Virus record (IMG/VR): IMGVR_UViG_3300010885_002608
Coordinates: 1 to 31,923 of that record
From: a virus
Strand: one strand, 5' to 3'
DNA: 31,923 nucleotides
Shown here in pieces: positions 878-16,474 of the stretch (its first letter is position 1; the number at the start of each line of letters is the position of its first letter). The notes beneath the pieces were generated by a model that searched no databases, had not been told where the DNA came from, and worked only from the letters and a program-made list of their open reading frames with translations. The translations under genes and the position numbers were made by a program.

Positions 878-1063
878 ATGTCACACCACGACTGGAGCGA
901 TACCGTTAAATACATTATGGATGGGATATCCGTAGTGACGGCTGTAGGAACAATAATTAACATGCTTCCAGCAGTCGCAGCGCTATTTACCATCGTATGG
1001 ACGGGAATTCGTATCTACGAGTCCCAGACTGTTCAAAAACTACTTGGTAAGGATAAGAAATGA
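878..1063 (+). CDS. Holin-like small membrane protein
   Basis: The protein is 61 residues with one long hydrophobic region (about residues 15-45, including IINMLPAVAALFTIVWTGI) followed by a charged end, LLGKDKK. Length, one or two membrane helices and a basic tail are what a small holin looks like, and very similar short proteins are annotated as holin-like in marine podoviruses, as I recall. It starts one base after the upstream stop, and its own stop TGA overlaps the next ATG (ATGA). It is about 6.5 kb away from the endolysin gene, and another holin candidate sits right next to that endolysin, so the lysis role remains open. Confidence 0.6.
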   Translation: MSHHDWSDTVKYIMDGISVVTAVGTIINMLPAVAALFTIVWTGIRIYESQTVQKLLGKDKK

Positions 1064-2001
1064 ACCCTCAAGCTAAAAAGAAAGGCGGCATGATGTTTGG
1101 CGGCAAAAAGCGCGGCATGCCCGCTGCTCTTAACAAGGGTAAGACCAATCACGGCAAGATGGCTAAAGGAGGTCACGTGAAGAAAATGGCAATGGGTGGC
1201 CTTGGCGCTGGCATGGGCGCGTCTGCTCCGATGACTCCCGATATACAACAGCAGGTCAACTTTGCACGGTCTAGTGAGGGTATGTCTCCCATTAGTGGCG
1301 TCATGAATGTCCCTGCTGGGGCAAGAACTATGATGCCGGGGGGCTTTACTGGTGGCGGTTTTAATCAACAGCAGCCCCCTATGGGCCGTATGGGTCGTCC
1401 TAATATGGGCGGGATGCAGGGTGGTCAGAGCGGCGGCATGCAAGCAATGGCTAAGGGCGGCAAGGTTGGCTACTCCAAGATGGAGAAGGAACATGTTTCT
1501 GCAATGAAGAAGCATGGCGTTCCTAAGAAGTTCATCAAGCAAGAAGAGAAAGAAGCCGAGGAAGAAACTGGCATGAAGAAGGGTGGTAAGGTCAAGCCAA
1601 ACTTTGCCAAGATGTTTGGTAACAAAATGAAGCCCCCCGGCATGAACACGGGCGGCATGGCTGGCTATAAGAAGGGCGGCATGGCCTGCGGCGGCATGAA
1701 GAAGTACGCCAATGGCGGTCAGGTTCTTAGCGCTGGCGACCGTAACGAGAAGGCGGGCGGCGACCAAGAGATGAAGATGCGTGAGGATATCGCTGCCAAG
1801 AACCGTATGCGCGGCCCCGGTCGTGGCCCTCTCAGCCGCAATGGTATGAAGGACAAGCCGTTTGGCTACGCTCGCGGCGGTGGTATCGAGGCCCACGGCA
1901 AGACCAAGGGTTCGATGGTCAAGATGGCCTCCGGTGGCTCGGTCTCGTCTCGCGCTGACGGCATTGCCTCTAAGGGCAAGACCAACTGCAAGATTTGCTG
2001 A
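1060..2001 (+). CDS. Gly/Lys/Met-rich KGG-repeat protein
   Basis: The 313-residue product is low complexity: glycine, lysine and methionine dominate, and there is no hydrophobic core of normal pattern. It carries at least six copies of a short motif of the form M/Y-A-x-G-G-x-V: MAKGGHV (DNA 1159), MAKGGKV (1447), MKKGGKV (1573), YANGGQV (1705), YARGGGI (1867) and MASGGSV (1924). A more ordinary helical stretch lies around residues 136-170 (KMEKEHVSAMKKHGVPKKF). The C-terminus RADGIASKGKTNCKIC resembles ends of similar proteins in other aquatic phages. The role is unknown; an unstructured virion or DNA-binding protein is a guess. It is coupled to both neighbours by overlapping start/stop codons. 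Confidence 0.75.
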   Translation: MNPQAKKKGGMMFGGKKRGMPAALNKGKTNHGKMAKGGHVKKMAMGGLGAGMGASAPMTPDIQQQVNFARSSEGMSPISGVMNVPAGARTMMPGGFTGGGFNQQQPPMGRMGRPNMGGMQGGQSGGMQAMAKGGKVGYSKMEKEHVSAMKKHGVPKKFIKQEEKEAEEETGMKKGGKVKPNFAKMFGNKMKPPGMNTGGMAGYKKGGMACGGMKKYANGGQVLSAGDRNEKAGGDQEMKMREDIAAKNRMRGPGRGPLSRNGMKDKPFGYARGGGIEAHGKTKGSMVKMASGGSVSSRADGIASKGKTNCKIC

Positions 2002-2282
2002 TGCGCCCGTCTCGCGGCATGGGAGCTATCGCCCCGTCTAAGCAGCCAAAGAAAATCCGGCGCAAGGATGGGGCGGAGGTTGACGTGTACGCCGCTGGCG
2101 GTGACACTGGCTCCAAAGTAAACGAGGCTGGTAACTATACTAAGCCAAGTATGCGTAAGTCGCTGTTCAACAGGATTAAGAGCAGTGCTACGCAGGGTAC
2201 TGGGGCGGGTCAGTGGAGTGCCCGTAAGGCGCAGTTGCTTGCCAAGCAGTACAAGGCCAAGGGTGGGGGATACAAGGATTGA
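2001..2282 (+). CDS. Small conserved basic phage protein
   Basis: Start chosen at the ATG at 2001, which shares its A with the TGA of the upstream gene; a TTG at 1995 is in frame but unnecessary. The product is 93 residues. It contains YAAGGDTGSKV, another copy of the A-x-G-G motif, and then a conserved C-terminal half with GNYTKPSMRKSLFNRIK and GQWSARKAQLLAKQYKAKGG. The latter half is recognisable from many aquatic phage genomes but has no assigned function that I know. It is strongly basic and lies in a run of tiny basic genes ahead of the connector genes. Confidence 0.75.
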   Translation: MRPSRGMGAIAPSKQPKKIRRKDGAEVDVYAAGGDTGSKVNEAGNYTKPSMRKSLFNRIKSSATQGTGAGQWSARKAQLLAKQYKAKGGGYKD

Positions 2283-2524
2283 AAGCTCCGCAGCAGTCCC
2301 TCAAGGCGTGGGGCGACCAGAAATGGCGTACCAAGTCTGGTAAACCGTCTAGCAAGACGGGAGAACGCTATCTGCCAGAAGCCGCCATCAAGTCGCTGAG
2401 TTCTGCGGAGTATGCGGCGACTACCCGCGCCAAGCGTAAGGGTAAAGCTGCGGGCAAGCAGTTTGTTGCTCAGCCCAAGGGCATTAGCCAGAAGACCCGC
2501 TCCTTCAGGAACATGGGGAAGTAA
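2279..2524 (+). CDS. DUF5872-like small basic protein
   Basis: This 81-residue basic protein has the block TKSGKPSSKTGERYLPEAAI followed by LSSAEYAATTRAKR and GKQFVAQPKGISQKT, which match my memory of the DUF5872 family. That family occurs in phages and large viruses and has no established function. The only start that keeps the full block is the TTG at 2279, which overlaps the preceding TGA (ATTGA) and follows an AAGG sequence, so a non-ATG start with translational coupling is likely. Confidence 0.75.
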   Translation: MKAPQQSLKAWGDQKWRTKSGKPSSKTGERYLPEAAIKSLSSAEYAATTRAKRKGKAAGKQFVAQPKGISQKTRSFRNMGK

Positions 2525-3235
2525 ATGGTCGCGTATACCACAGGTTTAACGGACTTTAACCTTGACCTTAATGCCATCGTGGAAGAGGCGTTCGAGCGTT
2601 GCGGTGTCGAGTTACGCTCTGGCTACGACCTGCGTACTGCTCGCCGTTCTCTTAATCTCTTGTTTCTTGATTGGGCAAATCGTGGCATTAACCTGTGGAC
2701 GGTTGAGCAAGGTCAGCAAGTTCTGACCTACAACGACGACACCTATGACCTACCTGTAGATACGGTGGACTTGCTTGATCACGTTATCAGGACAGGAACT
2801 GGTACCAATCAGACTGACATTACGATCACCCGTATCTCGGGTAGCGTTTACTCCGCTATCCCTAATAAAAATGCTACGGGACGTCCAATCCAGATCTGGG
2901 TTAACAGGCAATCTGGCGCTTCTACCGTCGCCTCTACTAGCTATCCGCAGTTTATAATTTGGCCCAAGCCTGACAATTCTACGACCTACACTCTTGTTTA
3001 CTGGCGCTTGCGTCGGATGCAGGAAGCCGGAAACGGCATCAACGGGCAGGACATACCGTTTCGATTCCTTCCTTGTATGGTTGCTGGTCTGTCATACATG
3101 TTATCTATGAAACTACCCGGTGCGGAAGCGCGTGCCCAGATGTTGAAAGCAGAATATGATCAGCAGTGGCAGTTGGCAGCGGAAGAAGACCGTGACAAGT
3201 CCCCAATCCGGCTTGTCCCGCGACAGATGTTTTAG
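2525..3235 (+). CDS. Putative head-tail connector/adaptor protein
   Basis: The 236-residue protein begins directly after the upstream TAA. An N-terminal helical region (LNAIVEEAFERCGVEL, then TARRSLNLLFLDWANRGINL) is followed by a beta-rich section with LPVDTVDLLDHVIR and a C-terminal helical part ending in RDKSPIRLVPRQMF. Proteins of this type and length sit next to tail genes in aquatic podoviruses and are usually called head completion or tail-accessory proteins (P22 gp4 or T7 gp11 type of role). The assignment is from layout and recalled resemblance; no catalytic motif is expected. A second adaptor candidate lies at 4002-4661. Confidence 0.6.
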   Translation: MVAYTTGLTDFNLDLNAIVEEAFERCGVELRSGYDLRTARRSLNLLFLDWANRGINLWTVEQGQQVLTYNDDTYDLPVDTVDLLDHVIRTGTGTNQTDITITRISGSVYSAIPNKNATGRPIQIWVNRQSGASTVASTSYPQFIIWPKPDNSTTYTLVYWRLRRMQEAGNGINGQDIPFRFLPCMVAGLSYMLSMKLPGAEARAQMLKAEYDQQWQLAAEEDRDKSPIRLVPRQMF

Positions 3236-3242
3236 GTGATGT

Positions 3243-3623
3243 ATGAGTGGTAGTCGGTTTGCCTCTGGTAAATACGCGATTGCCATGTGTGATCGCTGCG
3301 GGTTTAAATACAAGCTGAAGCAGTTGAAGACCTTGGTCATCAAAACCAAGAACGTTAACATCAAGGTCTGCTCGGAGTGTTGGGAACCTGACCAGCCACA
3401 GTTGCAGCTTGGTATGTACCCCGTCAATGACCCACAGGCGGTACGTGAGCCGAGACCGGATACTAGCTATTACACCCCAACGGGTACAAGTGGCGGTGAC
3501 GGTGGTAGTCGAGTCATTGAGTGGGGGTGGAACCCCGTTGGCGGGGCAAGTGCTTTTGACGCTTTTCTGACCCCGAATGGTCTGGGCACCACTTGCTCAG
3601 TTAATAGCGTAGTAGTCTTGTAA
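3243..3623 (+). CDS. Zinc-ribbon virion-region protein
   Basis: The 126-residue product has two CxxC pairs, C16-D-R-C19 and C47-S-E-C50, in the setting MCDRCGFKYKLKQLK and KVCSECWEPDQPQLQLGMYP, which is a clear zinc-ribbon layout. The rest, from about residue 70, is Gly/Ser/Thr-rich and ends in a beta-like hydrophobic stretch (CSVNSVVVL). The N-terminal 70 residues are strongly conserved in related phages as far as I recall. The function is unknown. Its position between two connector-type genes suggests a small structural or assembly role rather than transcription control. Confidence 0.7.
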   Translation: MSGSRFASGKYAIAMCDRCGFKYKLKQLKTLVIKTKNVNIKVCSECWEPDQPQLQLGMYPVNDPQAVREPRPDTSYYTPTGTSGGDGGSRVIEWGWNPVGGASAFDAFLTPNGLGTTCSVNSVVVL

Positions 3624-3632
3624 GGAGTATTT

Positions 3633-3791
3633 ATGAAGATGGACCAGAAGACGATGAAGGCTGTCGCCAAGGGCGAGGTCAAGGGCCATGAGAAGCGCAT
3701 GCACGGCATGAAAGCTGGCGGGCCGACTTCGATGGACATGAAAAAGTTTGGGCGTAATATGGCCCGTGCCAAGAACCAGCGGGGTGGCTAA
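3633..3791 (+). CDS. 52-aa basic phage protein
   Basis: A short gene with a very good ribosome binding site, AAGGAG at 3622-3627, five bases before the ATG at 3633; it ends with TAA at 3789-3791. The product is 52 residues, basic and Met/Lys/Gly-rich, with the segment KGEVKGHEKRMHGMKAGGPT and then SMDMKKFGRNMARAKNQ. I recall near-identical tiny proteins in other aquatic phages, always unassigned. The MKAGGPT piece is a loose relative of the A-x-G-G motif in the neighbouring proteins. It is likely real because of the strong binding site, the tight fit between neighbours and the recognisable sequence. Confidence 0.75.
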   Translation: MKMDQKTMKAVAKGEVKGHEKRMHGMKAGGPTSMDMKKFGRNMARAKNQRGG

Positions 3792-3792
3792 C

Positions 3793-4002
3793 ATGTCTGT
3801 ATATAAACAGCCGCAGTCGGTCAAGGTTGAAAAGGGTAATGGCTACCCACAGACCGATATTGGCAAGAACAATATCATGGTCAAGGGTCGCTGGCCTTCG
3901 GATACTGGCATGAAGACGTATGGCACCATGCGTGGTGCGGGCGCTGCCACCAAGGGCAAGAAGTTCCTTAACTCGGATAACGAGCCCGGCCCGAGGACGT
4001 AA
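3793..4002 (+). CDS. Small basic phage protein, 69 aa
   Basis: Start set at the ATG at 3793, one base after the upstream stop; an in-frame GTG at 3748 would overlap the preceding gene by 44 bases and is not needed. The 69-residue product includes YKQPQSVKVEKGNGYPQTDI and KTYGTMRGAGAATKGKKF, a pattern I recall from other podovirus genomes without a known role. The stop TAA overlaps the ATG of the adaptor gene (TAATG), so it is probably translated with it. Confidence 0.7.
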   Translation: MSVYKQPQSVKVEKGNGYPQTDIGKNNIMVKGRWPSDTGMKTYGTMRGAGAATKGKKFLNSDNEPGPRT

Positions 4003-4661
4003 TGAACTACGTAGCTTCTGGAACATCTTCATCGAACTTGTGGTACGCCATTCAGGAGTACACCGAGAACTTTGAAACGTCTTTTATTGCCAACATACCA
4101 AACTTTGTTCAGTTGGCGGAAGAGCGGATTTACAATTCCGTCCAGATTCCGGCTATCCGGAAGAACCAAACTGGTACTATGACCGCTAATAATAAGTATG
4201 TCACACTACCAACGGATTGGTTAGCTACGTTTTCGTTAGCTGTCATTACTCCAACTACTCAGGCCCAAACGTTCTTGTTGAACAAGGACGTAAACTTTAT
4301 CCGTGAGGCTTTCCCGACCCCTACGTACACCGGAACGCCGTCGCACTACGCACAGTTTGATGCTACGACCCTCCTCGTCGGGCCAACCCCCGACCTGTCG
4401 TATGATATCGAGCTGCATTACTATTACTACCCCGAGAGTATAGTAACTGCTACTACTAGCTGGCTGGGCACCAATTTTGAAACTGCCTTGCTTTACGGCG
4501 CACTGCGTGAGGCGTATCAGTACATGAAGGGTGACGCAGATATCACCGCCCAGTACGAGGCCAAGTATCAGGAATCACTTGACTTGCTGAAACAACTCGG
4601 CGATGGCAAGGATAGGATGGATACTTACCGTAGCGGACAAGTTAGGGTGCCAGTGAGATGA
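4002..4661 (+). CDS. Head-tail adaptor protein, phiSU10 type
   Basis: The 219-residue protein has an N-terminal helical region with IPNFVQLAEERIYNSVQIPA, a beta-rich middle with ANNKYVTLPTDW and a C-terminal helical region with LLYGALREAYQYMKGDADIT. This order and these blocks fit the adaptor family typified by the phiSU10 adaptor, which forms a ring below the portal and joins head to tail. The identification is from memory of the family. Start and stop overlap both neighbours (TAATG and ATGA). Together with the gene at 2525 it may form a two-ring neck, as adaptor pairs do in related phages. Confidence 0.65.
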   Translation: MNYVASGTSSSNLWYAIQEYTENFETSFIANIPNFVQLAEERIYNSVQIPAIRKNQTGTMTANNKYVTLPTDWLATFSLAVITPTTQAQTFLLNKDVNFIREAFPTPTYTGTPSHYAQFDATTLLVGPTPDLSYDIELHYYYYPESIVTATTSWLGTNFETALLYGALREAYQYMKGDADITAQYEAKYQESLDLLKQLGDGKDRMDTYRSGQVRVPVR

Positions 4662-5092
4662 TAACTCAAGGTCAATGCGGCAGTTTCAGGGCGGAGTTGC
4701 TGAATGGCTATCATGCGTTCAGTTCCGCGTACCGTGCTGCCGACACGTTTAAGATTGCCCTATATTTGCCTACAGCAGACCTCAATCCCGCGACCACGAT
4801 GGTCTATACTACTGTGGGTGAGATATCTGCTACTGGATACGCGGCTGGCGGGTTGGTGCTTACGCCTACCGCCCCGGCATATTCGGGCACTACGGCATAC
4901 GAGTCGTTTGATAACGCGGTGTGGACTTCTAGCGATATCTTGGCAACAGGGGCTTTGATTTATAACTTTACTCAGGGCAACAAAGCCGTCTGCATCCTCA
5001 ACTTTGGGGGCAACAAAACGCCGACTGGCGGGACGTTTACGGTGCAATTTCCGGTAAATGGCTCTACTACGTCTGTCCTTCGGTTTTACTAA
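4658..5092 (+). CDS. Conserved small tail-module protein
   Basis: This 144-residue protein starts MITQGQCGSFRAELLNGYHA and has blocks FKIALYLPTADL, GYAAGGLVL and a C-terminal beta-rich half with ALIYNFTQGNKAVCILNFGG. I recognise this as a widespread phage protein that usually lies just upstream of tail fibre genes; it is mostly annotated as a hypothetical or structural protein. The beta-rich sequence and low charge suit a virion component. It is coupled to the adaptor gene by ATGA. Confidence 0.65.
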   Translation: MITQGQCGSFRAELLNGYHAFSSAYRAADTFKIALYLPTADLNPATTMVYTTVGEISATGYAAGGLVLTPTAPAYSGTTAYESFDNAVWTSSDILATGALIYNFTQGNKAVCILNFGGNKTPTGGTFTVQFPVNGSTTSVLRFY

Positions 5093-5107
5093 GGTCAAGA
5101 GGTAAGC

Positions 5108-5233
5108 ATGATTTGGGTACCGGTAGATAATTCCCAAACGCCAAGTTGGGTTCTTGTTAACGATGCCCAGACTAGTGCATGGAGTCCGGTTGATGATTCT
5201 CAGGCTGGTAGTTGGTCTCCAGTCTTACCATAG
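5108..5233 (+). CDS. 41-aa W-x-P-V-D repeat protein
   Basis: A 41-residue product built of about three copies of a 12-15 residue unit, W-x-P-V-D/N-x-S/A-Q-x-x-S-W: MIWVPVDNSQTPSW, then SWVLVNDAQTSAW, then SPVDDSQAGSWSPV. I recall such tiny Trp/Asp/Gln-repeat proteins in other phages at the same place, just ahead of the fibre gene, with no known role. An AGGT/AGAGG sequence lies just upstream (5094-5102). Real gene status is supported by the internal repeat, which would be unlikely by chance, and by the fit between neighbours. Confidence 0.7.
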   Translation: MIWVPVDNSQTPSWVLVNDAQTSAWSPVDDSQAGSWSPVLP

Positions 5234-5240
5234 GTGAAAC

Positions 5241-6299
5241 ATGGCTACTTATTCTACTAACCTTGCTATTACCCTACCCGCTGATGGCGAGTACTCCGGT
5301 ACGTGGGGTCAGATTACCAATACTAATCTTGGTACTCTGCTGGAACAGGCGGTTAGCGGGTACGTTACTCAGGGGGTCGTTAGCGGCACTGACACTTCGA
5401 TCACTATCCCCAACGGTGCTACGGGCGTGGCCCGTAACATGTACCTTCAGTTGACTGGCACGGGTGGCGCTAGCACAAACCTGATTGTTCCAGCCAACAA
5501 GAAGCTATATTTTATTTATAACGCCACTGCTGGTCAGGTCACTGTAAAAACAGCAACCCCCGGTATTTCCGTGCCCGCTGGCGCAAAAATGATTCTTGTC
5601 TCTAACGGCACAGACATTGTAGACGCGGTTAGCTATTTTTCTTCTTTGGTTGCGGGGTCTATCAACAGTACTCCGATTGGTGCGACCACTGCTTCAACTG
5701 GCGCGTTTACCACGCTTAGTGCTACGACCAGCCTTACTACTACGTACATGGTGGTAAACGGGGCAACCGTCCCGGCTAACGGTGTCTACCTCCCATCAGC
5801 TAATACGCTGGGCTTTAGCTCTAACACGACCTCCCGTGCCACGGTTAACTCTACTGGTAACTGGAACTTCGTTGCTGGCACTACTGGCGTCACTGCCACG
5901 TTTAACTCGTTCAGCGGTACGCACTCCGTACAGATTGGCGACACCGCCAATACTAAGTATAACGCTGGGTTCCTTGAAACCCCGGTCAATGCATCGACTG
6001 GTGTAACCATTACGCCGGTACTAGCGGACTCGGGCAAGACGTTTTACTTCACGGGTGCCACAGCTCCTACGGCAACCATCCCGGCTAACGGTAGCGTTGC
6101 CTATCCCACGGGTACGGTATTGACCTTTATTAATGACGCTTCTGCTGCTGTAAGTATGACAATCGCTATTACCACTGATACTATTCAATTGGCGGGTACG
6201 GGTACAACTGGCTCTAGAACGCTTGCTCGTTACGGTATAGCCACGGCGGTAAAAGTGACATCCACCAAGTGGATTATTAATGGTACGGGACTTACCTGA
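5241..6299 (+). CDS. Tail fibre or spike protein
   Basis: The 352-residue product is rich in Thr, Ser, Ala and Gly with short beta-type repeats, as in trimeric fibres. The N-terminal block LAITLPADGEYSGTWGQITN is a conserved virion-attachment segment in many phage fibres. A linker with INSTPIGATTASTGAFTTLS marks the shaft, a motif common to phage fibre shafts. No Ser-Asp peptidase (chaperone) end was seen. The function would be host-receptor binding on the outside of the virion. It overlaps the next gene by one base (TGATG). Confidence 0.7.
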   Translation: MATYSTNLAITLPADGEYSGTWGQITNTNLGTLLEQAVSGYVTQGVVSGTDTSITIPNGATGVARNMYLQLTGTGGASTNLIVPANKKLYFIYNATAGQVTVKTATPGISVPAGAKMILVSNGTDIVDAVSYFSSLVAGSINSTPIGATTASTGAFTTLSATTSLTTTYMVVNGATVPANGVYLPSANTLGFSSNTTSRATVNSTGNWNFVAGTTGVTATFNSFSGTHSVQIGDTANTKYNAGFLETPVNASTGVTITPVLADSGKTFYFTGATAPTATIPANGSVAYPTGTVLTFINDASAAVSMTIAITTDTIQLAGTGTTGSRTLARYGIATAVKVTSTKWIINGTGLT

Positions 6300-6736
6300 T
6301 GAGCGCTATTTTAAATACGCTATTTGCCGCAAAGGGTAGGACATCTATCTATACCGGTGACCTTACGTCGGGTACTATTCCTTCCGGAATTAGTACTTTT
6401 TACGGGCTTTTTGACGCTCTTGGCGGTAGCATATCCCCCGCTACTTTTACGGGGGCGGGAACTACGCTTACTGTAAAAAGAACATACGACCTTGTTAATT
6501 CCACCACCCCTATATATACCTCAGTTATACAGATTAGTGGTTTTATTTCTGACCCCGGTGCTACGTTTATATCCACTGCTCAATGGGGTACTGGGTCGTT
6601 ATTATCACGAATTGCATATACGTATACAGCGGGCACCCCCAACCTAGGTACTTGGACTTTTTCATTAACTGCTACTCCTAACTTTGGTCTTCAAGCTGGT
6701 GCTGGTACAACCCAAACACTCTATATTTTTGGGTAA
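6299..6736 (+). CDS. Hypothetical beta-rich tail-region protein
   Basis: The 145-residue protein starts MSAILNTLFAAKGRTSIYTG and is dominated by Thr, Ser, Gly and hydrophobic residues in alternating pattern, which predicts a beta-sandwich. I do not recognise a family. Its position directly after the fibre gene, with overlapping codons, makes an accessory tail or fibre component likely. The DNA is somewhat more AT-rich than its neighbours. Confidence 0.5.
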   Translation: MSAILNTLFAAKGRTSIYTGDLTSGTIPSGISTFYGLFDALGGSISPATFTGAGTTLTVKRTYDLVNSTTPIYTSVIQISGFISDPGATFISTAQWGTGSLLSRIAYTYTAGTPNLGTWTFSLTATPNFGLQAGAGTTQTLYIFG

Positions 6737-6742
6737 CAAACA

Positions 6743-7623: not shown

Positions 7624-7958
7624 GCCTCGTTGTTGAGCAAGCACAGTTCTTGATGGATGTCTGCAAGCTGGTGGTGTTTGCCACCAAGCAGGGCTTCGTA
7701 GTCACGGGCGGTGAGCTGTTCCGCACTCCGGAGCAGCAAGAAATCTACGTGAAGACTGGGCGCTCCAAGACCATGAACAGCTACCACCTAAAGCGGTGCG
7801 CGGTTGACCTAAACTTCTTTAAGGGCGGTGAGCTGATTTACGACATCAAGGTGCTTGGCCCTGTTGGTGCGTACTGGGAAAGTCTTAGCCAGAAGAACTC
7901 TTGGGGTGGTAACTGGAACTCCTTTAAGGATGTTCCTCACTTTGAAAGGCGCGTCTAA
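7620..7958 (+). CDS. Endolysin, M15-type peptidase
   Basis: This 112-residue protein is a small peptidoglycan peptidase of the M15 (VanY/L-alanyl-D-glutamate peptidase) fold. The zinc ligands are visible: H56 and D63 in SYHLKRCAVDL and H107 in VPHFER. The preceding block VTGGELFRTPEQQ matches the substrate-side strand and helix of the family. The length is that of a single catalytic domain with no cell-wall binding module and no signal sequence, so it should depend on the adjacent holin to reach the cell wall. It starts inside the stop of the holin gene and ends overlapping the next start. Confidence 0.85.
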   Translation: MSLVVEQAQFLMDVCKLVVFATKQGFVVTGGELFRTPEQQEIYVKTGRSKTMNSYHLKRCAVDLNFFKGGELIYDIKVLGPVGAYWESLSQKNSWGGNWNSFKDVPHFERRV

Positions 7959-10291
7959 TGCCGCTTACCAAACTTACGTTAAAGCCCGGAATAAACAAAG
8001 AAGGTACTAGCTACTCCAACGAGGGCGGGTACTACAACTGCGACAAAATCCGGTTCCGTTCCGGATACGCAGAAAAAATTGGTGGGTGGCGCAACCAATC
8101 GTATAACTACACGTACAGTGGCGTGTGCCGTTCTATGTTTAACTGGGTGCCGTACGATTCCTCTAACCTGCTTGCTATGGGCACTAGCCAGAAGTTCTAC
8201 ATTGAAAACGGCGGTCAGTACTACGACATCACGCCCATTCGCAGCGGGCCTACCACGCTAGCTGCTACACCTATTGCTACTAGCACTGCTAGTAAATTAG
8301 TTACAGTAACCGCTGCTTTGCACGGCGTTACATCGGGCACTTTTGTCATTATTACGTCTACGGCGGCGGTGGGCGGTTTGACTATTAGTGGTGAGTATCA
8401 AGTCATCGCTACACCGACCGTGAATACTTTCACTATCGCAAGTACCACCGCTGCTTCGACTAACGCAACGGGTGGCGGTACCGTTACGGTTACTTACCTG
8501 CTTAATGCCGGTGGTTCTACGCTAACTGTCGGCCTTGGTTGGGGTGCTGGGTCATGGTCTTCTGGCGGTTGGGGCAGCTCTGCTTCGTCTACTAGTCTGG
8601 TTCCCCTACGCTATTGGGCCAGTGATATCTATGAACAAAACCTTGTTTTCTGTCAGGTAGGCGGTGGCGTCTATTATTGGGCAAAAGACACCGCTACGTA
8701 TCCTCGGGCAATAACGCTGGAAACGGCTTCCAACGCTACGACTAAAACTTCAAAGTCCACCACCACTAGCCCTGTGGGTATTAGCTTTGCTTTGGGGTCG
8801 CCTAGCGTTGTCGTTGACACCACTGACGGTATAAATACAGGCAGCGTGATATCCGGAACTGGTATTCCTACTGGATCATACGTCCCCGAAACTTGGAATT
8901 TTAGCACCACAATACCGCTGTACCTAAACGGTGCCCCTACCGTAACTACCGCAAACGCCTCTGGTACGTATACCTTTAGTTATGCCGGGCGTCATGTGCC
9001 CGAACAGACTAGCTTTATTTTAACCTCCGATACGTCTGCTTTTATTATGGTGTTTGGCTCTAGTCCGTATATTTCAACAAATTTTAGCCCAACTTATGAC
9101 CCTATGCTTGTGCGCTGGTCTGACCAAAATAACCCGTTTGAATGGGTTCCTGAAGTCACTAATCAGTCGGGTGAGCAGCATCTGTCCAATGGTTCGTACC
9201 TTGTAGCTGCGGTAAACACCCGACAGGAAATCCTCGTATTCTCAGATGCTGCTGTCTATTCGATGCAGTACGTTGGTCCGCCATACGTCTGGAACTTCTC
9301 GTTGATTGGCGACAATACGTCCGTCATTTCTTGTAACGCGGTTATTTCAATTAACACCATCGTTTACTGGATGGGCGTAGACAAGTTTTACCTGTACAAC
9401 GGTAGGTTGGAAACGCTGTCTTGTACGCTATGGAAATTTGTTTACGACAACCTAAACCGGGCACAGCAATCTCAAGTGGTTTGCGGTTCTAACGAAGGTT
9501 TTAGTGAGGTATGGTGGCATTATCCGTCATCTAATAGCATGGTAAATGATAGTTACATCATTTATAACTATCTTGAACAAACATGGTATTACGGTACGTT
9601 AAACCGTTCCTACTGGCTAGACTCACCCCTACGCTCTAGTCCTATGGCTGCGTTTAGCGTGCAGACTTCTGTTCTGGCCCAAGACCTGACTACCACTATT
9701 ACCACTATCACATTGACTGACGGCGCAAGCTATCCGGCGTCTGGCACTGTCACGATTGACGCGGAACAAATTACGTACACCAGCATCAGTAGTAACTCAC
9801 TACTTAATTGCGTACGAGGGGCGAATAGCACCACTCCCGCTACCCATACTACGTATACCCCTGTCACGTATAACGTGCCTAATCAAATTATGTTCCATGA
9901 AGTTGGTACTGATGACCAATCAACTACCACTACTCTGCCAATAGTCTCGTACCTTGAGTCGTCAGATATCGACATTGATGACGGGTATAACTTTGGCTTT
10001 GTGTGGCGCATCATTCCCGACATGACCTTCCGTGGGTCTACCGGTGCTTCTCCACAGGCAATTTTGTCTCTTAAGGCTCGGGTTAACTCAGGTAGCGATT
10101 ACACCACGGCGTTTACCGACCCAGCCAATGTCACTAGGACTGCCACTATCCCCGTGGAGCAGTACACCGGACAGGTCTATACCCGTATCCGAGGAAGGCA
10201 AATGGCCTTCCGCATAGACTCCACAGAAGTCGGTACCGCGTGGCAGGTAGGCGCGATGCGTATTGATATCCGACCGGACGGACGCCGATGA
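7958..10291 (+). CDS. Large tail protein, nozzle-like
   Basis: The 777-residue protein begins with LTLKPGINKEGTSYSNEGGY and KIRFRSGYAEKIGGW, a strongly conserved start I recall from the large tail protein of aquatic podoviruses. It is rich in aromatic and small residues in a beta-type pattern, and the part from about residue 370 (MVFGSSPYIS, EQHLSNGSYLVAAVN, AAVYSMQYVG) looks like propeller blades. Length is close to that of the T7 nozzle protein gp12 (about 790 residues). I infer a tail-tube or nozzle role below the adaptor ring. An insertion at roughly residues 100-190 and one at 560-640 are Thr-rich and resemble Ig-like or decoration domains. Confidence 0.65.
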   Translation: MPLTKLTLKPGINKEGTSYSNEGGYYNCDKIRFRSGYAEKIGGWRNQSYNYTYSGVCRSMFNWVPYDSSNLLAMGTSQKFYIENGGQYYDITPIRSGPTTLAATPIATSTASKLVTVTAALHGVTSGTFVIITSTAAVGGLTISGEYQVIATPTVNTFTIASTTAASTNATGGGTVTVTYLLNAGGSTLTVGLGWGAGSWSSGGWGSSASSTSLVPLRYWASDIYEQNLVFCQVGGGVYYWAKDTATYPRAITLETASNATTKTSKSTTTSPVGISFALGSPSVVVDTTDGINTGSVISGTGIPTGSYVPETWNFSTTIPLYLNGAPTVTTANASGTYTFSYAGRHVPEQTSFILTSDTSAFIMVFGSSPYISTNFSPTYDPMLVRWSDQNNPFEWVPEVTNQSGEQHLSNGSYLVAAVNTRQEILVFSDAAVYSMQYVGPPYVWNFSLIGDNTSVISCNAVISINTIVYWMGVDKFYLYNGRLETLSCTLWKFVYDNLNRAQQSQVVCGSNEGFSEVWWHYPSSNSMVNDSYIIYNYLEQTWYYGTLNRSYWLDSPLRSSPMAAFSVQTSVLAQDLTTTITTITLTDGASYPASGTVTIDAEQITYTSISSNSLLNCVRGANSTTPATHTTYTPVTYNVPNQIMFHEVGTDDQSTTTTLPIVSYLESSDIDIDDGYNFGFVWRIIPDMTFRGSTGASPQAILSLKARVNSGSDYTTAFTDPANVTRTATIPVEQYTGQVYTRIRGRQMAFRIDSTEVGTAWQVGAMRIDIRPDGRR

Positions 10292-10896
10292 TAAAAGGTG
10301 GCTTGCGGAACATAACTTCTCCAAACTTCCCGGTCGCGCTGCCCCAGTACGAACAGAAGTTTATGGATCAATTTATTAATGTATTAAGGTTAAACACAAA
10401 TACATTAGCAAATGCTATTAACTCCCCAAAAGTATTTGGTTCGTTTTATAGTAACGTACGCCAAACTAATGCTGGTGTAGCCGCTGTTAATTTAATTACG
10501 TATAATAATACAGTAGTTACATATGGCACGGTGGTAAATTCACCCGGTTCACGTATATATGTATCAGAAAACGGAATTTATAATCTTCAATTTTCGGTTC
10601 AGTTAGACAAAACCGGCGGCGCGGCGGCGGATATATACATTTGGCTACGTCAGAACGGTGTAAACGTACCGAACAGCGCTGGTAAAGTGGTTGTTCAGGG
10701 TGCTAATACTGAACTAATTGCTGCGTGGAACTACGTCGTACTACTGTCTGCCAATGACTACCTAGAAATTGCGTGGGCGTCTACGGACACTGCGGTTGTA
10801 ATTGAAGCTTTTGCCGCTGCCACCGGCCCCCCGTCGATCCCCGCCATTCCTTCTGTAATTGTTACTATCTGTTGGGTATCAAATACTCCAATTTAG
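10288..10896 (+). CDS. Jelly-roll-like fibre or decoration protein
   Basis: The 202-residue protein has a short N-terminal part (SPNFPVALPQYEQKFMDQFI) that looks like a virion-binding helix, followed from about residue 80 by a beta-rich domain with SRIYVSENGIYNLQFSVQ and ADIYIWLRQNGVNV and NDYLEIAWAS. That order resembles the C1q/TNF-type jelly rolls found at the tips of phage fibres. Such domains bind surface ligands. It is coupled by ATGA to the tail gene. The first half is unusually AT-rich (30-38% GC in 60-base blocks from 10381 to 10620), then jumps to about 53%. Confidence 0.6.
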   Translation: MIKGGLRNITSPNFPVALPQYEQKFMDQFINVLRLNTNTLANAINSPKVFGSFYSNVRQTNAGVAAVNLITYNNTVVTYGTVVNSPGSRIYVSENGIYNLQFSVQLDKTGGAAADIYIWLRQNGVNVPNSAGKVVVQGANTELIAAWNYVVLLSANDYLEIAWASTDTAVVIEAFAAATGPPSIPAIPSVIVTICWVSNTPI

Positions 10897-10928
10897 GCGT
10901 ACTATTTGGCTATCATTTGGAGAAAAAA

Positions 10929-12824
10929 ATGAGCCTCCACCATCTTGCCCGACACCTCGCCACAAAAGGGCGTGGAGAAGACTCTGTACTGATTCACATG
11001 ACCCCCAAGGAAGTCGCTGGGCTGCAATCGCTTGCTCGCGCTAATGGTGGGTCTTTGACTGTTAACCCTAGCACTGGACTTCCTGAAGCTGGATTCCTGA
11101 GCGCCATCCTGCCCATGATTGCAGGTGCTGCTGCTACGCTTTTGACTGGTGGTGCGGCGGCTCCCATTGTGTCGGCCCTTGCCGGTGCCGGTGCCGGTGC
11201 TGTGACCAAAGGTGCTACGTCCGGTGACTGGTCGGCTGGCAGCTTGCTCGGCGGTGCGCTGAGCGGCTTCGGCGGTGCGGGTGTTGGCAGTGCGCTGGGT
11301 ACCGCTGGTGGCGTTGGTGCTGCTGGTGCTGGTACAGGTGCTGTAGAAGGTCTAGGCGCTGGGCCTCTTGGTGCTGGGCTTGTTGAAACAACAGCTCCTG
11401 TGGTTGAGCAGTCCCTTGGTGCGATGGGTACGGGGCTTGTTAACTCCTTCTCCAGCGTTCCGGGGCTTGAAAGTCTTGCTGGCAATATCGGCATGATGCC
11501 CGCTGGCGCTGCTCTTGCGGGCGGCGCTCAGGCTATGCAGCCTAAGCCGTATGAGTACGACCCCAAAAATGAAGCCCCGACAAAGTATAAGCGGACTAAG
11601 TATAACCCCGGTGAGATCAATACAACTGACCCGGATAAGCCATACTTTATTGGGCAGGGGTTTGGCCCATACGAAGAATACACGATGGCTGAAGGTGGTG
11701 AGGTAAAGGATGAGAAGCCGATGGCTGCTCCTGCCGCTGTTAGTGCAACGCAGTCCTCTGGTCCGTTGGCTGACTACCTTAGCAGCTTGAATAGGCAGTT
11801 GGTATCGCCCGTTTCGTGGTCTCAGGAACGGCAGGGTATGCCGAAGCCGACTGCAACTACGACTGAACCGTCTACCAATCCGTCTGTCAATCCGTATAAC
11901 GAGTACCTTTCAAACTTCCGTGGTACTGGCCTTTTTGGAGGCGCTATCAATGAGGCTCTCTCCCGTGCTGGCTATGGCGGGGGGGTTATGGGCGGTATGG
12001 GTACGCCGCAATATCGGTACGACGGTGCTACTGGGAAGTTTGTTAATTCCCGTGATACATCCGTGACTAACCCCGCTACGACTAACCCCGCTACGACTAA
12101 CCCCGCTACGACTAACCCCGCTACGACTAACCCCGCCGTTGACTACTCCATGTATCCCGGACTTCGGGACTACATGCGGAATAACAACATAGGTCAGCAG
12201 CCTGACGTTACGCCCACGACTAACCCCGCTACGACTAACCCCGCTACGACTAACCCCGCCGTTGACTACTCCATGTATCCCGGACTTCGGGACTACATGC
12301 GGAATAACAACATAGGTCAGCAGCCTGACGTTACGTCCACGACTACTCCAACTACTCCGGCTACTACGCCTGAATATACTTTGCCGATGTCCTATGAAGA
12401 GCCCCCCCCTGTAAATATCTATTCTCCGTATAACCCGTACCCTACGTCTACCGAAGAAAGTTATTCTCCTCCTAGCAGGAGCAGGGCTGAAGGACGGATG
12501 GTACAACGTGCAAGTGGTGGTGGTATTGGGTCACTGAATACCTCATCGCTTGGCGGCTATTCGGACGGCGGCAGGTTGCTGCGTGGTCCCGGCGACGGTG
12601 TGTCGGATGATATTCCGGCTACTATCCATCGTAATGACGGCAGCAAGCAGGAAGCCCGATTGGCTGACGGCGAGTTTGTCATTGACGCGCAGACGGTATC
12701 TAGGCTTGGCAATGGTTCGACCGAGGCTGGTGCAAAAAAGCTCTACGCCATGATGGGCCGTATCCACACTATCAAGACTAAGCCGGGTAAAGACCTCCAC
12801 GCTGACAAATATCTGCCAGCATGA
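10929..12824 (+). CDS. Internal virion-type protein with tandem repeats
   Basis: Start set at the ATG at 10929, with GGAG six bases upstream; an earlier in-frame GTG at 10872 would overlap the previous gene. The 631-residue protein has a helical start (MSLHHLARHLATKGRGEDSV), a long Gly/Ala-rich hydrophobic region (about residues 58-140), an A-x-G-G motif (MAEGGEV), and a Pro/Thr/Asn-rich region with two nearly identical 41-residue repeats. The C-terminal domain from about residue 545 (LRGPGDGVSDDIPATI, EARLADGEFVIDAQTVSRLG, GAKKLYAMMGRIH) is highly recognisable from ejection-type proteins of aquatic phages. A role inside the virion or in DNA entry is inferred from this domain and its neighbours. 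Confidence 0.65.
   Translation: MSLHHLARHLATKGRGEDSVLIHMTPKEVAGLQSLARANGGSLTVNPSTGLPEAGFLSAILPMIAGAAATLLTGGAAAPIVSALAGAGAGAVTKGATSGDWSAGSLLGGALSGFGGAGVGSALGTAGGVGAAGAGTGAVEGLGAGPLGAGLVETTAPVVEQSLGAMGTGLVNSFSSVPGLESLAGNIGMMPAGAALAGGAQAMQPKPYEYDPKNEAPTKYKRTKYNPGEINTTDPDKPYFIGQGFGPYEEYTMAEGGEVKDEKPMAAPAAVSATQSSGPLADYLSSLNRQLVSPVSWSQERQGMPKPTATTTEPSTNPSVNPYNEYLSNFRGTGLFGGAINEALSRAGYGGGVMGGMGTPQYRYDGATGKFVNSRDTSVTNPATTNPATTNPATTNPATTNPAVDYSMYPGLRDYMRNNNIGQQPDVTPTTNPATTNPATTNPAVDYSMYPGLRDYMRNNNIGQQPDVTSTTTPTTPATTPEYTLPMSYEEPPPVNIYSPYNPYPTSTEESYSPPSRSRAEGRMVQRASGGGIGSLNTSSLGGYSDGGRLLRGPGDGVSDDIPATIHRNDGSKQEARLADGEFVIDAQTVSRLGNGSTEAGAKKLYAMMGRIHTIKTKPGKDLHADKYLPA
12066..12137 (+). repeat. 15-bp tandem repeat, TNPAT-coding
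   Basis: The unit ACTAACCCCGCTACG begins at 12066, 12081, 12096 and 12111, with a partial fifth copy at 12126. It codes for the five-residue unit T-N-P-A-T. The same unit recurs twice inside the second copy of the larger duplication downstream. Such exact short repeats expand and contract by replication slippage, so the linker length probably varies between related phages. Confidence 0.9.
12093..12335 (+). repeat. 123-bp tandem duplication in coding sequence
   Basis: Positions 12093-12212 and 12216-12335 are identical over 120 bases, a period of 123 bp (41 codons). Each copy carries TNPAT units followed by VDYSMYPGLRDYMRNNNIGQ. The complete identity, with no silent changes, points to a very recent duplication or to ongoing recombination. 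The reading frame is kept. Confidence 0.9.
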
Positions 12825-13264
12825 ACTACCATCTGAGTTACATTCCTCGGGGTATTCTGACTGAAGTAGTAGCCCAGATTTTACCGTACCTACCGAAGTC
12901 CGAAGAGTGGAGCATAGGTAGGTCACACGTTGATGACATCGTTGCGTTCCTATACTCAGGTCAAATGCACCTGATTGGTGTGTACGACAACGATACGCAG
13001 AAGATGCACGGGTATGTCATCTGCGAAGTCAAGAATTACCCGCAATACAAAATGCTTATCATGCAGTACACCGCCGGAGAACCCGGTGTTATGCAGCATA
13101 TCGAAGAGAAGACGCACAAGTTTGTAGAAGACTTTGCCAAAGCTCTCGGTTGCAAGGGCATCGAATTCGTCGGTCGTCCGGGCTGGAAGAAAACCATGCT
13201 TAAGCATGGCTACAAAGCGGACACCATTGTGTACGAGAAATTTTTTGAGGGAGAACCACAATGA
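12821..13264 (+). CDS. GNAT-like protein of the virion gene cluster
   Basis: The 147-residue protein has a predicted alpha/beta order like a GNAT acetyltransferase: strand MHLIGVYD, strand MHGYVICEVK, strand MLIMQYTAG, a long helix (about residues 94-108), strand GIEFVGRPGWKKTMLKHGYK and a final strand. The end block G-R-P-G-W-x-x-x-L/M-x-x-x-G-Y is typical for GNAT proteins. The usual acetyl-CoA loop (Q/R-x-x-G-x-G/A) is not clear; AGEPGVMQHI stands in its place, so activity is uncertain. It overlaps both neighbours by four bases. GNAT-like genes in this spot are common in podoviruses, but their role is not known to me. Confidence 0.55.
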   Translation: MNYHLSYIPRGILTEVVAQILPYLPKSEEWSIGRSHVDDIVAFLYSGQMHLIGVYDNDTQKMHGYVICEVKNYPQYKMLIMQYTAGEPGVMQHIEEKTHKFVEDFAKALGCKGIEFVGRPGWKKTMLKHGYKADTIVYEKFFEGEPQ

Positions 13265-14862
13265 GCGGCGGCGGTAGCAGCGGACCACAATATTCAGAGT
13301 CCACAGTAACTCAACAGGCTATTCCTAAAGAGCTGATGCCGTTTGCGACAGACATGCTCGCACGTACGTCTGCGCTTACTGACCTTAACCAGAACCCTTA
13401 TCAGCAGTATCAGGGTCAGCAGTTTGCTGGTATCAACCCGCTGCAACAGCAGGGGTACCAAGGTATTTCACAAGCTGGCGTTGCTCCACAGCTTAACGCA
13501 GCTACTAGCCTTGCCAGTAATGCAGGGCTTGCCGCAATGGGTGGTAGTAATTACCAACCAGTGAACCAACGTAATTTCTTTAAAACCCCCACTGCTGGGG
13601 TTCAGGACATCAACTACACGCGGACACAAGCTCCTCAGTTACAGCAGTATCAGATGGGGCCAGCGCTTGCGGCTCAAGCTCCAAATTTGATGCAGTATCA
13701 GATGGGAGGTCCGCAAGAAATTAGCTCGCAAAATTTGTCTGCCTACCAGATGGGTGGCCCGCAGCAGGTTAGCACGCAAGACTTTACGGGTGGTAATGTT
13801 AACCAATACATGTCTCCCTACATGCAGAGGGTGGTTGATACCCAAAAGCAGGGGGCTATTCGTGACTATGCTCGTCAGTTGCCGCAGCTTGGTGCTAGCG
13901 CTGCCCAAGTGGGTGGTCTTGGTGGTACTCGTAGCGCACTGATGCAGTCGGAAGCCCAGCGTAACTTGCAGAATCAGTTGGGAGACATTGAGGCTACTGG
14001 CTCACAGGCTGCGTATCAGAACGCACAGCAGCAGTTTAACGCGCAGCAGCAAGCTCAGCTTCAGGCTCAGCAGGCTAACCAGCAGGCTGGACTTACTGTT
14101 GGTCAGCAGAATCTTGGATCACAGCAGGCAGCGCAACAGTTGTCCGCACAGCAGAGGATGCAGGCTCAACTTGCTAACCAGCAGGCTGGACTTACTGTTG
14201 GTCAGCAGAATCTGCAATCGTTGCTTCAGACGCAGGGGCTTGGCTCTGGACAAAACCTTCAGGCTCAACTTGCTAATCAGCAGGCTGGTATGAACGTCGG
14301 TCAGCAAAACCTGCAATCGTTGCTTCAGACGCAGGGGCTTGGCGCACAGAACACCATGCAGTCTCAGCAGCTCAATCAGGCGGCTCAGCTTCAGGCTCAG
14401 CAGCAGGGTTTGGGTCAGCAGCAGGCTCTCAATCAATTTAACCAGCAGAATGCTGGTATGAAGGCGCAGTACGGGTTGTCCGGGGCGCAGTTGGCTGACC
14501 AGTCTAGGCAGTTTGGTGCGAATCTTGGCTTGCAGTATCTCCAGCAACAGATGGGTGCGGCAAACACCCTCGGTCAGCTCGGACAGACGCAGTTTGGTCA
14601 GCAGATGGGTGCGGCTCAAGCTCAGCAACAGGCGGGTGGACAGCTTCGTGATATTGAACAGCAGCGGTTGGCTGCACAGTACCAGTCGTTCATCGACCAG
14701 CAGAACCTGCCGTACCAGCAGCTTGGCTTTCTCTCGGATGTTCTCCGTGGTGTGCCGACAGCGCAGTCGGGGCAGCAGATTTACCGTGCGCCGCCTAGCG
14801 TCATGGGTCAGGTGGCAGGTCTTGGTGTCGGCCTTGGTAGCCTAATGGGTAAGGGTACGTAA
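13261..14862 (+). CDS. Gln-rich internal virion-type protein
   Basis: The 533-residue protein is extremely rich in Gln, Ala and Leu. The N-terminal 200 residues contain repeated YQMGGPQ-type units (near residues 126, 145 and 160), followed by a conserved block NQYMSPYMQRVVDTQKQGAI and GASAAQVGGLGGTRSALMQS. Residues 260-410 are helical, coiled-coil-like and include three 33-residue repeats. The C-terminal part (QQRLAAQYQSFIDQQNLPYQ and VLRGVPTAQSGQQ) is again conserved in similar phages as I recall. I infer an ejection or internal core protein from composition and position between other such genes; there is no enzyme motif. Confidence 0.65.
   Translation: MSGGGSSGPQYSESTVTQQAIPKELMPFATDMLARTSALTDLNQNPYQQYQGQQFAGINPLQQQGYQGISQAGVAPQLNAATSLASNAGLAAMGGSNYQPVNQRNFFKTPTAGVQDINYTRTQAPQLQQYQMGPALAAQAPNLMQYQMGGPQEISSQNLSAYQMGGPQQVSTQDFTGGNVNQYMSPYMQRVVDTQKQGAIRDYARQLPQLGASAAQVGGLGGTRSALMQSEAQRNLQNQLGDIEATGSQAAYQNAQQQFNAQQQAQLQAQQANQQAGLTVGQQNLGSQQAAQQLSAQQRMQAQLANQQAGLTVGQQNLQSLLQTQGLGSGQNLQAQLANQQAGMNVGQQNLQSLLQTQGLGAQNTMQSQQLNQAAQLQAQQQGLGQQQALNQFNQQNAGMKAQYGLSGAQLADQSRQFGANLGLQYLQQQMGAANTLGQLGQTQFGQQMGAAQAQQQAGGQLRDIEQQRLAAQYQSFIDQQNLPYQQLGFLSDVLRGVPTAQSGQQIYRAPPSVMGQVAGLGVGLGSLMGKGT
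14062..14358 (+). repeat. Three 99-bp (33-aa) repeats
   Basis: Three consecutive 99-base units begin near 14062, 14161 and 14260. Each codes for a variant of QAQLANQQAGLTVGQQNLQS plus about 13 further residues. Copies two and three share long exact runs, for example CTGCAATCGTTGCTTCAGAC; copy one is more diverged in its second half. The period keeps the reading frame, and the protein here should be a regular coiled coil or helical stack. Confidence 0.85.
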
Positions 14863-14863
14863 T

Positions 14864-16474
14864 ATGAGCATGGCAACCCCACTGATGAGTGACACGGCGC
14901 GGGCATGGTTGGCCTCGCTTAAGGGTGTCCCCCCTGAGCAGCTTAACCAGCACGCTATCAGCGCCGCACAGACTGGCATGATTTCGTTTGGCGATGCTAT
15001 CGCGCTCAAGCAGATGGCAGACAAGTTGTCGGGTGCTCCTGCACAGAAGGACGCCCCGTCCCCAACAAGCGTGGTGCAAGACCTTAAACAGCAAGTTCAG
15101 AACAAGGATATGTATAGCGGAGTTGGGGCGCTTTCAACTGCGCCTGCGCCTGCTGCGTCACCGATGGAGTCTGGTATTGCTAGCCTTCCTGCTCCTGTGA
15201 TGGATAACGCCGAGTACGCTGGTGGTGGCATCGTGGCGTTTGCGGAAGCTGGCTCTACTGGTGCTAGCAAGAAAAATGAAAAGCGTCCGCTTACTCCGGA
15301 AGAAGAAGCGGAATATCAGAGACTGAGCCAGTATATTAAACAATCTATTGCGCCAAGGACACAAACGTCTATATGGGAAAATTTTGGTGGCCCATTGGCT
15401 GAAACATCCTCGGCTCCACCGCGAGATCCTGCGGTAGATAAAGTATTGGATCGTTTTGAACCGCGCTATAAAGAGTTAAAAAATATTCGTGACGAGTGGG
15501 AAGCAGGCACAAAGGAACGTGAAGCTGTCGCAGGGGCTGAGCAACTGTCTCAACAAGCGGGACTCGGCGCGCTCCCCGCTGCTCCCAACGTTGCTACTGA
15601 AAAGAAAGCTAAGGGAATTTCTTCACTTGACCCCGGCTTGGCTCAGTATTTTAAGCAAGACACGACTGGCGGCGGGGGAACTCCTAAGCTGGGGTCTATG
15701 CGTGGTGCCACGACTCCCCTGCAAGAATATGTCAGGAAACTTGAGGCTGAGATTCCCAACGATGCTGCCCGCAAAACTGCTATCGACGCTTCTCGTAAAG
15801 AGTCCGAAGCGGCAGGTATTGGGGCGGCTGACAAACGTGCTGAAGCGCTACGTAAAGACGAGATGGAGGAACTTAAGTCTCGTAAATCCGAAGACCGCCG
15901 CATGGCTCTGGCAGAAGCTGGGTTCAGAATGGCAGAAGCTGCGTCTCAGTCCGGTGCTAGTCTCCTTGGCTCTGCGGCATCAGGCGCTAGCGGGTACATA
16001 AAGTCGGTTAAGGAATCCCAAGCCGAACAGCGTAAAGCCCAGAAAGAACTTAGTAAGGCCGAAATTGAAATTATGCGTTCCAACGAAGCGCGTGAGGCGG
16101 GTCATATTGCTAAGGCTGATGCACTTAAGACCACCGCCACTGCTCGTTTTGACAAGGCGCAGGGTATGCTTATGGAAGCAGACTTCGAGGCTCGCAAGGC
16201 TGAGTACGTGACAAACGGGAACATCCTCGCTGCTCAGTTGGCTCAAGCGGGCAAGAATGACGTGGCGCAAGAGTTTGAATATGCATACATGAACGCTATC
16301 AAGCAGAATAAACAGGCCGATGCTAAGAAGATCTATGACCATTACATACAGCTAGTTCCGTCTGTTGCCGCTGCTATGGCTGCTAACTCGCCTTTTGCTG
16401 GATTGGGTAATAACCCTGCTGGTGGGGGTGGTGGTAATAACGGCTTTAAATATGTTGGTTCGCGCCCACAATAA
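14864..16474 (+). CDS. Helical internal virion-type protein
   Basis: The 536-residue protein starts MSMATPLMSDTARAWLASLK; a second ATG two codons later is also possible. A segment at about residues 95-130 includes MDNAEYAGGGIVAFAEAGS, a copy of the A-x-G-G motif that I have seen in many aquatic phage proteins. Residues 290-480 are strongly charged, Ala/Lys/Glu-rich and predicted to be long helices or coiled coils (for example AEIEIMRSNEAREAGHIAK). The C-terminus is Gly/Asn-rich. No catalytic motif is visible. It lies directly before the giant polyvalent gene, so a role in the ejected protein set is inferred. Confidence 0.6.
   Translation: MSMATPLMSDTARAWLASLKGVPPEQLNQHAISAAQTGMISFGDAIALKQMADKLSGAPAQKDAPSPTSVVQDLKQQVQNKDMYSGVGALSTAPAPAASPMESGIASLPAPVMDNAEYAGGGIVAFAEAGSTGASKKNEKRPLTPEEEAEYQRLSQYIKQSIAPRTQTSIWENFGGPLAETSSAPPRDPAVDKVLDRFEPRYKELKNIRDEWEAGTKEREAVAGAEQLSQQAGLGALPAAPNVATEKKAKGISSLDPGLAQYFKQDTTGGGGTPKLGSMRGATTPLQEYVRKLEAEIPNDAARKTAIDASRKESEAAGIGAADKRAEALRKDEMEELKSRKSEDRRMALAEAGFRMAEAASQSGASLLGSAASGASGYIKSVKESQAEQRKAQKELSKAEIEIMRSNEAREAGHIAKADALKTTATARFDKAQGMLMEADFEARKAEYVTNGNILAAQLAQAGKNDVAQEFEYAYMNAIKQNKQADAKKIYDHYIQLVPSVAAAMAANSPFAGLGNNPAGGGGGNNGFKYVGSRPQ

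Follow-up and report, generated by a model that had tools for sequence, protein, structure and literature searches.

The T5 tape measure protein pb2 is cleaved after R1127, which parts its body from the wall-degrading domain (PMC10038345). For the tape measure protein of phage JBD30 the authors guessed a cleavage at R1066; they modelled only the final 33 residues and proposed a hairpin and helices for the hook (PMC11445458), so that the hook itself is a prediction. In TP901-1 Tal, proteolytic processing occurs at a glycine-rich site ahead of the wall-degrading catalytic domain (PMC11409707), and the internal proteins of phage T4 form a diverse set whose sole common part is the capsid targeting sequence (CTS) (PMC3012670). 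Here we analyse a viral DNA stretch of 31,923 nucleotides (IMG/VR record IMGVR_UViG_3300010885_002608, positions 1 to 31,923; hereafter the window), in which a seven-residue motif recurs in virion-region proteins of an aquatic phage. In its strict form it consists of Y, M or F, then A or K, any residue, two glycines, any residue, and V or I. An earlier inspection of the letters alone (the sequence-only reading) had taken it for a docking or processing signal shared by co-assembled proteins without other similarity. Our analysis favours, at even chances, a short linear signal of packaged or ejected proteins with two uses, as the opening of a C-terminal tag and as a linker element before a hook or lytic unit.

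All 11 positions named in the sequence-only reading were in frame within the proteins to which they had been assigned. The 313-aa protein has six strict sites (MAKGGHV at 1159, MAKGGKV at 1447, MKKGGKV at 1573, YANGGQV at 1705, YARGGGI at 1867 and MASGGSV at 1924), the 536-aa protein has YAGGGIV at 15215, and the 631-aa protein has MAEGGEV at 11685 together with RASGGGI at 12507 and YSDGGRL at 12558, which had rightly been called looser forms. The site at 2088 in the 93-aa protein is in frame and reads YAAGGDT, its final T placing it outside the pattern as originally defined. One strict site had been overlooked, YAAGGLV (4838-4858) in the 144-aa protein; it is kept in locus L008 and stands in a setting of a different kind. 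Recurrence across virion-region proteins is thus borne out by the in-frame sites, and also by the shuffles and homologues described below.

Against its six strict sites, shuffled versions of the 313-aa protein contained 0.026 on average and none of 20,000 reached six; when the GG pairs were kept intact, the mean was 0.053 and the maximum 2. A single strict match arose in a fraction of 0.013 of shuffles of the 650-codon frame (open from 10872, the 631-aa protein starting at its ATG at 10929) and of 0.005 for the 536-aa protein. Such single matches are weak alone, and we therefore examined their conservation in homologues. Homology to the 777-aa protein, without regard to the motif, was used to choose 80 viral loci with 831 non-redundant proteins. 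In these, [YMF]A.GG.[VI] occurred 45 times, as against 2.35 times after shuffling (about 20-fold less) and twice in reversed proteins. With A or K allowed at the second position and V, I or L at the last, there were 26 sites in 20 non-redundant 650-type proteins (15 carriers; 0.67 sites expected) and 18 in 16 non-redundant 536-type proteins (14 carriers; 0.23 expected), compared with 2 in 28 proteins of the 533-type and 1 in 18 of the 2382-type. The remaining 728 proteins had 20 sites; Gly/Lys-rich proteins, either of the 313-aa kind or a neighbour of these, accounted for 15. Motif density per 1000 aa was 2.7 for the 650-type, 1.6 for the 536-type and 0.11 for all others. An independent set of 669 viral proteins showed no enrichment (4 sites, 2.44 expected); two of the four lay in a Lys/Gly protein of the kind that carries the C-terminal tag described below, and one in a sequence resembling a tape measure module. 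This sample rules out a general enrichment across viral proteins, and since certain classes are enriched, the motif is tied to gene class and confined to certain classes. The comparison with shuffled proteins proposed in the sequence-only reading therefore places the motif far above shuffled Gly/Lys-rich sequence, and the strong tie to gene class is the opposite of the missing gene link that was to speak against a signal.

The last motif copy of the 313-aa protein opens its C-terminal tag, KMASGGSVSSRADGIASKGKTNCKIC, and relatives and neighbours share such ends, of the form (M/Y/F)(K/A)xGGx(V/T)...RADG(C/I)AxRGKT(K/R)G.... The tag core DGCAxRGKT was found in at least 120 viral loci, whereas the reversed-order control occurred in 2 in the whole collection. 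When C, I or V was allowed in the core, there were 179 carriers in 97 loci among the matches listed, to which the following counts also refer. Two to four tagged genes were present in 55 loci; the 158 carrier bodies of at least 40 residues formed 65 families by single linkage, and 86 of the 91 pairs of bodies within a locus were unrelated. The protein ended exactly 2 or 5 residues past the core in 130 of 179 carriers, and a GG lay within 25 residues upstream of the core in 170 of 179. This GG was not in the search pattern, and it was flanked by M/Y/F at -3 (80%), K/A at -2 (91%) and V at +3 (58%); the tag therefore opens with the motif of the sequence-only reading. The tag is modular, being placed on unrelated small proteins. 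In locus L335 (2628-2945) a homologue of the untagged 84-aa DUF6321 protein of the window shares its ...NKSLRAWNC end, and there the tag follows. Of 104 neighbours of tagged genes, 22 matched PHROG 12985, more than matched any other family; the adaptor-like gene of the window belongs to this PHROG. Some tagged carriers matched the PHROG category 'virion structural protein', where the matching part may be body or tag, and in the cultured Synechococcus phage MinM2 a tagged protein lies near head genes; Planktothrix phage Pag-Yong1 is a further cultured carrier. The 313-aa protein has five relatives among viral contigs and gave no match in PHROG and Pfam searches. A tblastn search of cultured phages with its end and with the tag found no match, the queries being probably too short or of too low complexity. 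Loci L297, L332, L304 and L324 contain adjacent runs of 2-4 small genes with unrelated bodies and the same tag at the end.

Proteins of the 536-type begin with a variable helical region, continue with a linker rich in Pro, Gln and Met, and then have GIAxLP...YAGGGIVAF. A scan for YA.GG.VAF matched at least 120 loci, against 64 in total for the reversed-order pattern; 119 of the 120 forward matches listed were in frame within a called gene, compared with 37 of 64 for the reversed order, and nearly all of these forward matches belong to the 536-type family. Carriers of this type from loci chosen independently of the motif have Y/M/F, A/K, GG and then V in 14 of 14 cases. In five relatives a lytic transglycosylase (SLT) starts about 14-25 residues past the motif; one of them (L036) was picked independently of the motif. 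A search for related loci with the 536-aa protein alone found none, and a tblastn search of cultured phages with the YAGGGIVAF consensus, a query probably too short or of too low complexity, gave no match. Natural fusions of the 650-type and 533-type proteins have the GG motif at the junction in 11 of 11 cases, separate 533 proteins have it within their first 60 residues in 0 of 138, and in 124 of 125 unfused hook proteins the chain stops directly after the hook.

The unit that follows the motif in the 631-aa protein is homologous, judging from its sequence, to C-terminal modules of siphophage tape measure proteins. Among the 16 PHROG families matched by the 80 C-terminal residues of the 650-codon frame, 11 are tape measure proteins; this segment also matched the tape measure proteins Douge gp16 and JBD30 gp46, both represented in the PDB (chains 8zdo and 8rk3). 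Douge gp16 has two copies of the module, each preceded by YA(G/N)GGFL, and the match in JBD30 gp46 (residues 1018-1062) starts at GFASGGHI. Of 88 non-redundant homologues, 82 have an A.GG-type lead no more than 45 residues from the module, and 55 have a strongly hydrophobic window upstream of it; Caulobacter phage GB2A is a cultured carrier of the hook protein. In the 650-codon frame hydrophobic windows start at residues 68-95, forming a segment near residues 68-113, and the resulting order of hydrophobic segment, repetitive linker, motif and hook matches the one proposed for a tape measure protein. The structure model of the hook has strands at 53-56 and 62-65 and helices at 76-82 and 87-104 (pLDDT about 70-91), fitting the short beta-hairpin and two helices of a hook; the motif region is of low confidence (disordered), as it is in the model of the 536-aa protein. 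Foldseek with the hook model found nothing significant in the PDB, and its top matches among viral models were only proteins of uncultured phages. Sequence comparison with lambda gpH gave a partial match, and in lambda gpH and a JBD30 relative ATGG/ASGG-type motifs flank the hook on both sides. A tape measure protein is the long coiled ruler of a long tail; the 631-aa protein stands in a gene block resembling that of short-tailed phages. A hook module of the tape measure type also occurs in pelagiphages HTVC104P and HTVC115P, where its gene stands between the portal and capsid genes, and the matching gene of Roseobacter phage CRP-207 also has several GG motifs (genes of this set: L283 4888-6189, L422 3-587 and L284 4636-7473).

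In T5 pb2 the residues right after the cut are A1128-E-G-G-M-M. The protein has three [AK].GG in 1219 residues, so that the chance of an exact match at the cut is about 0.25%. Five T5-like tape measure proteins, the most distant at about 37% identity, retain R-A-x-G-G. A JBD30-type tape measure protein of Pseudomonas phage Ps56 (L289) has NPVR-HATGGQI about 14 residues past the R1066 site; by the T5 rule, this would be a likelier cleavage site than R1066.

How else might the motif be explained? Chance occurrence in Gly/Lys-rich proteins can be set aside with near certainty: these sequences are of low complexity, and the single matches in the 650-codon frame and the 536-aa protein reach only P of about 0.01 alone, but chance is refuted by the shuffles, including the one that preserved GG, by the reversed-order controls, by class specificity and by conservation in homologues. 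A purely structural role is possible, although we doubt it. AxGGxV would then be a flexible hinge or linker, or the entry to the hook, kept for chain geometry and recognized by no partner or protease, in keeping with its low-confidence regions in both models and its position in Gly/Pro/Gln-rich linkers. The constraint seen in the 536-type carriers is, however, tighter than a hinge requires; the fusions have the motif at their junction, yet no separate 533 protein has it near the N-terminus; and the motif also opens the C-terminal tag, where no hinge is needed.

The strongly basic character of the tags and of the 313-aa protein (43 K and 65 G in 313 aa) would suit binding to packaged DNA, in the manner of basic disordered tails, by the Lys/Gly-rich motif and the basic RGKTKG tag. 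We regard this as unlikely, because YAGGGIVAF, the commonest form in the ejection proteins, contains no basic residue, and an exact DG(C/I)AxRGKT core at a fixed 2 or 5 residues from the end is not required for such a tail. It is highly improbable that the peptides are recent copies spread by recombination among neighbouring genes and not a selected signal. Tagged genes are often adjacent, 2-4 per locus, but codon identity of the tags within one locus is 0.454 against 0.389 expected from codon usage, and the peptide is held at a fixed distance from the C-terminus. As codon agreement is barely over expectation, it is the peptide that is common and not a recent DNA copy, and selection is mainly on the peptide. 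The codon test, which revealed no long near-identical DNA tracts spanning the tags, thus does not support recent DNA copying as the origin of shared tags.

We return to the short linear signal with two uses. In the 313-aa protein and many unrelated small proteins, the tag opened by the motif would most likely address its carriers to the procapsid or portal vertex, as the T4 CTS does; it is the T4 internal-protein parallel that makes us favour this address. In the 631- and 536-aa proteins, which we presume to be ejection proteins, the motif lies in a flexible linker that opens a C-terminal unit, either a hook of the tape measure type or, among relatives, a lytic transglycosylase. At this position the motif would most likely mark the point gripped by the tail vertex, cut at maturation, or both, with T5 pb2 as the model for a cut directly before AxGG that releases the wall-degrading domain from the body. 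Docking, cleavage and packaging of the motif carriers in this phage are what we infer from these parallels, and the GG motif has the look of a signal by which proteins travelling with the DNA are sorted or trimmed. The two uses may share a receptor or protease. More broadly, the tag may be a general encapsidation or portal-vertex address for dozens of unrelated small proteins in a widespread group of aquatic phages, with the same partner or protease reading the GG in their ejection proteins and in siphophage tape measure proteins, a generalization that we think rather unlikely.

Several points weigh against this interpretation. To judge by sequence, the only link between the two uses is the seven-residue pattern that they share. 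The residue before AxGG is R in T5, whereas it is Y/M/F in the strict sites of the window and in the motif-independent 536-type set, so that the processing part of the original proposal gains one firm parallel, a cut directly before AxGG, with a mismatch in the preceding residue. Sequence comparison of the hook with T5 pb2 detected no homology to T5's own hook. As eight of the 11 fusions came from a search whose pattern matches the junction, only L112, L119 and L193 are unbiased. Many seemingly untagged homologues of tagged proteins bear degenerate tags, and clean gain or loss of the tag therefore rests mainly on the one DUF6321 case. With regard to the sequence-only reading as a whole, a docking or processing signal gains partial support from the specificity and modularity observed, but two different contexts, C-terminal tag and linker element, had been merged in it. 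A shared signal is the best reading for the tag (about 65 unrelated families, several per locus, little sign of common DNA). The absence of other similarity holds among the three classes of carrier, although every site has a homologous family of its own.

Features of the window (positions in the whole stretch; genes called by a simple longest-ORF (open reading frame) rule)
Feature	Position	Strand	Basis or remark
84-aa DUF6321 protein, without tag	622..876	+	
313-aa Gly/Lys/Met-rich protein, six strict motif copies	1060..2001	+	
Penultimate tag-like repeat YARGGGIEAHGKTKGSMVK of 313-aa protein	1867..1923	+	translation; similar tandem ends in loci L346 and L290
C-terminal tag MASGGSVSSRADGIASKGKTNCKIC of 313-aa protein	1924..1998	+	tag family
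93-aa basic protein, off-pattern YAAGGDT at 2088	2001..2282	+	PHROG 17747, function not known
Adaptor-like protein (SU10_adaptor)	2525..3235	+	PHROG 12985
144-aa protein with YAAGGLV at 4838	4658..5092	+	
777-aa virion structural/tail stabilization-like protein	7958..10291	+	query for relatives
631-aa protein: hydrophobic segment, long repetitive linker, motif at 11685, C-terminal hook module	10929..12824	+	
Linker with RASGGGI and YSDGGRL, adjoining hook upstream	12507..12578	+	low confidence (disordered) in model
Hook module GPGDGVSDDIPATI...LADGEFVIDAQTVSRLGNGS... of 631-aa protein	12579..12821	+	PHROG and PDB-chain matches; model
533-aa Gln-rich protein	13261..14862	+	some relatives have it fused to the hook protein
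536-aa protein: helical N-terminal region and linker, then GIASLPAPVMDNAEYAGGGIVAFAEAG (15215) and the C-terminal part	14864..16474	+	
2382-aa large presumed internal virion protein, end of block	16483..23631	+	relatives almost motif-free

The order of the block is kept in relatives: stabilization protein, fibre-like protein, 650, 533, 536 and a very large protein. A 147-aa protein (12821-13264) that is acetyltransferase-like by eye separates the hook protein from the 533-aa gene; a similarly placed gene in Rhizobium phage RHph_TM3_14A is annotated as N-acyltransferase. Within the linker of the 631-aa protein (12065-12345) lie exact repeats of 15 bp (TNPAT) as well as a 123-bp unit in 2.1 copies at 99%, and the 533-aa gene has 99-bp repeats (14059-14405). 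The DUF6321 protein of the window corresponds to the C-terminal portion of far larger proteins that belong to several PHROG families; the 500 records that it matches are chiefly of cyanophages and pelagiphages.

If the tag is an address label, it singles out those small aquatic-phage proteins that travel with the virion, and foreign proteins could be packaged by using it as a loading tag. Should AxGG be a processing site, it provides a sequence rule for the cuts of tape measure and ejection proteins, which are unsettled in most phages, and predicts specific cuts such as NPVR-HATGGQI in JBD30-like tape measure proteins. The shared hook links ejection-type to tape measure proteins at the sequence level. 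Signals of this kind are known, as a terminal targeting peptide and as a processing or anchor site of tape measure proteins; this form is apparently undescribed, and no paper on the tag letters or on YAGGGIVAF was found in the openly accessible literature searched.

Among described systems, the ejection proteins of podophages (P22 gp7/gp16/gp20, T7 gp14-gp16) resemble those of the window in their position after the tail-stabilization gene, in their hydrophobic segments and in the lytic transglycosylase present in relatives of the 536-type. Proteins of the window gave weak PHROG matches to internal virion and DNA ejection proteins, and no significant sequence homology to the P22 and T7 model ejection proteins was found. 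The siphophage hook (JBD30 gp46 residues 1022-1066, Douge gp16, lambda gpH) has a homologous SD-IPA...GEFV(I) after FA/YAxGG, and shares with the 631-aa type a hydrophobic segment and an unstructured linker ahead of the hook, as well as the predicted hairpin and helices. Unlike a siphophage tape measure protein, the 631-aa protein bears its hook on a short chain, in a tail-stabilization/adaptor block and beside presumed ejection proteins. TP901-1 Tal is a different protein and its site is NGGGNSGGGD, not AxGGxV. The T4 targeting peptide is N-terminal and is removed by the prohead protease, whereas the tag of the window is C-terminal and unrelated in sequence; the two are alike in that one short terminal peptide is carried by several unrelated small proteins. 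In T5 pb2 a basic residue precedes the cut, unlike the aromatic residue or Met of the window, where cleavage is a sequence-based prediction, but in both AxGG stands where the body meets a wall-degrading domain and is conserved in relatives.

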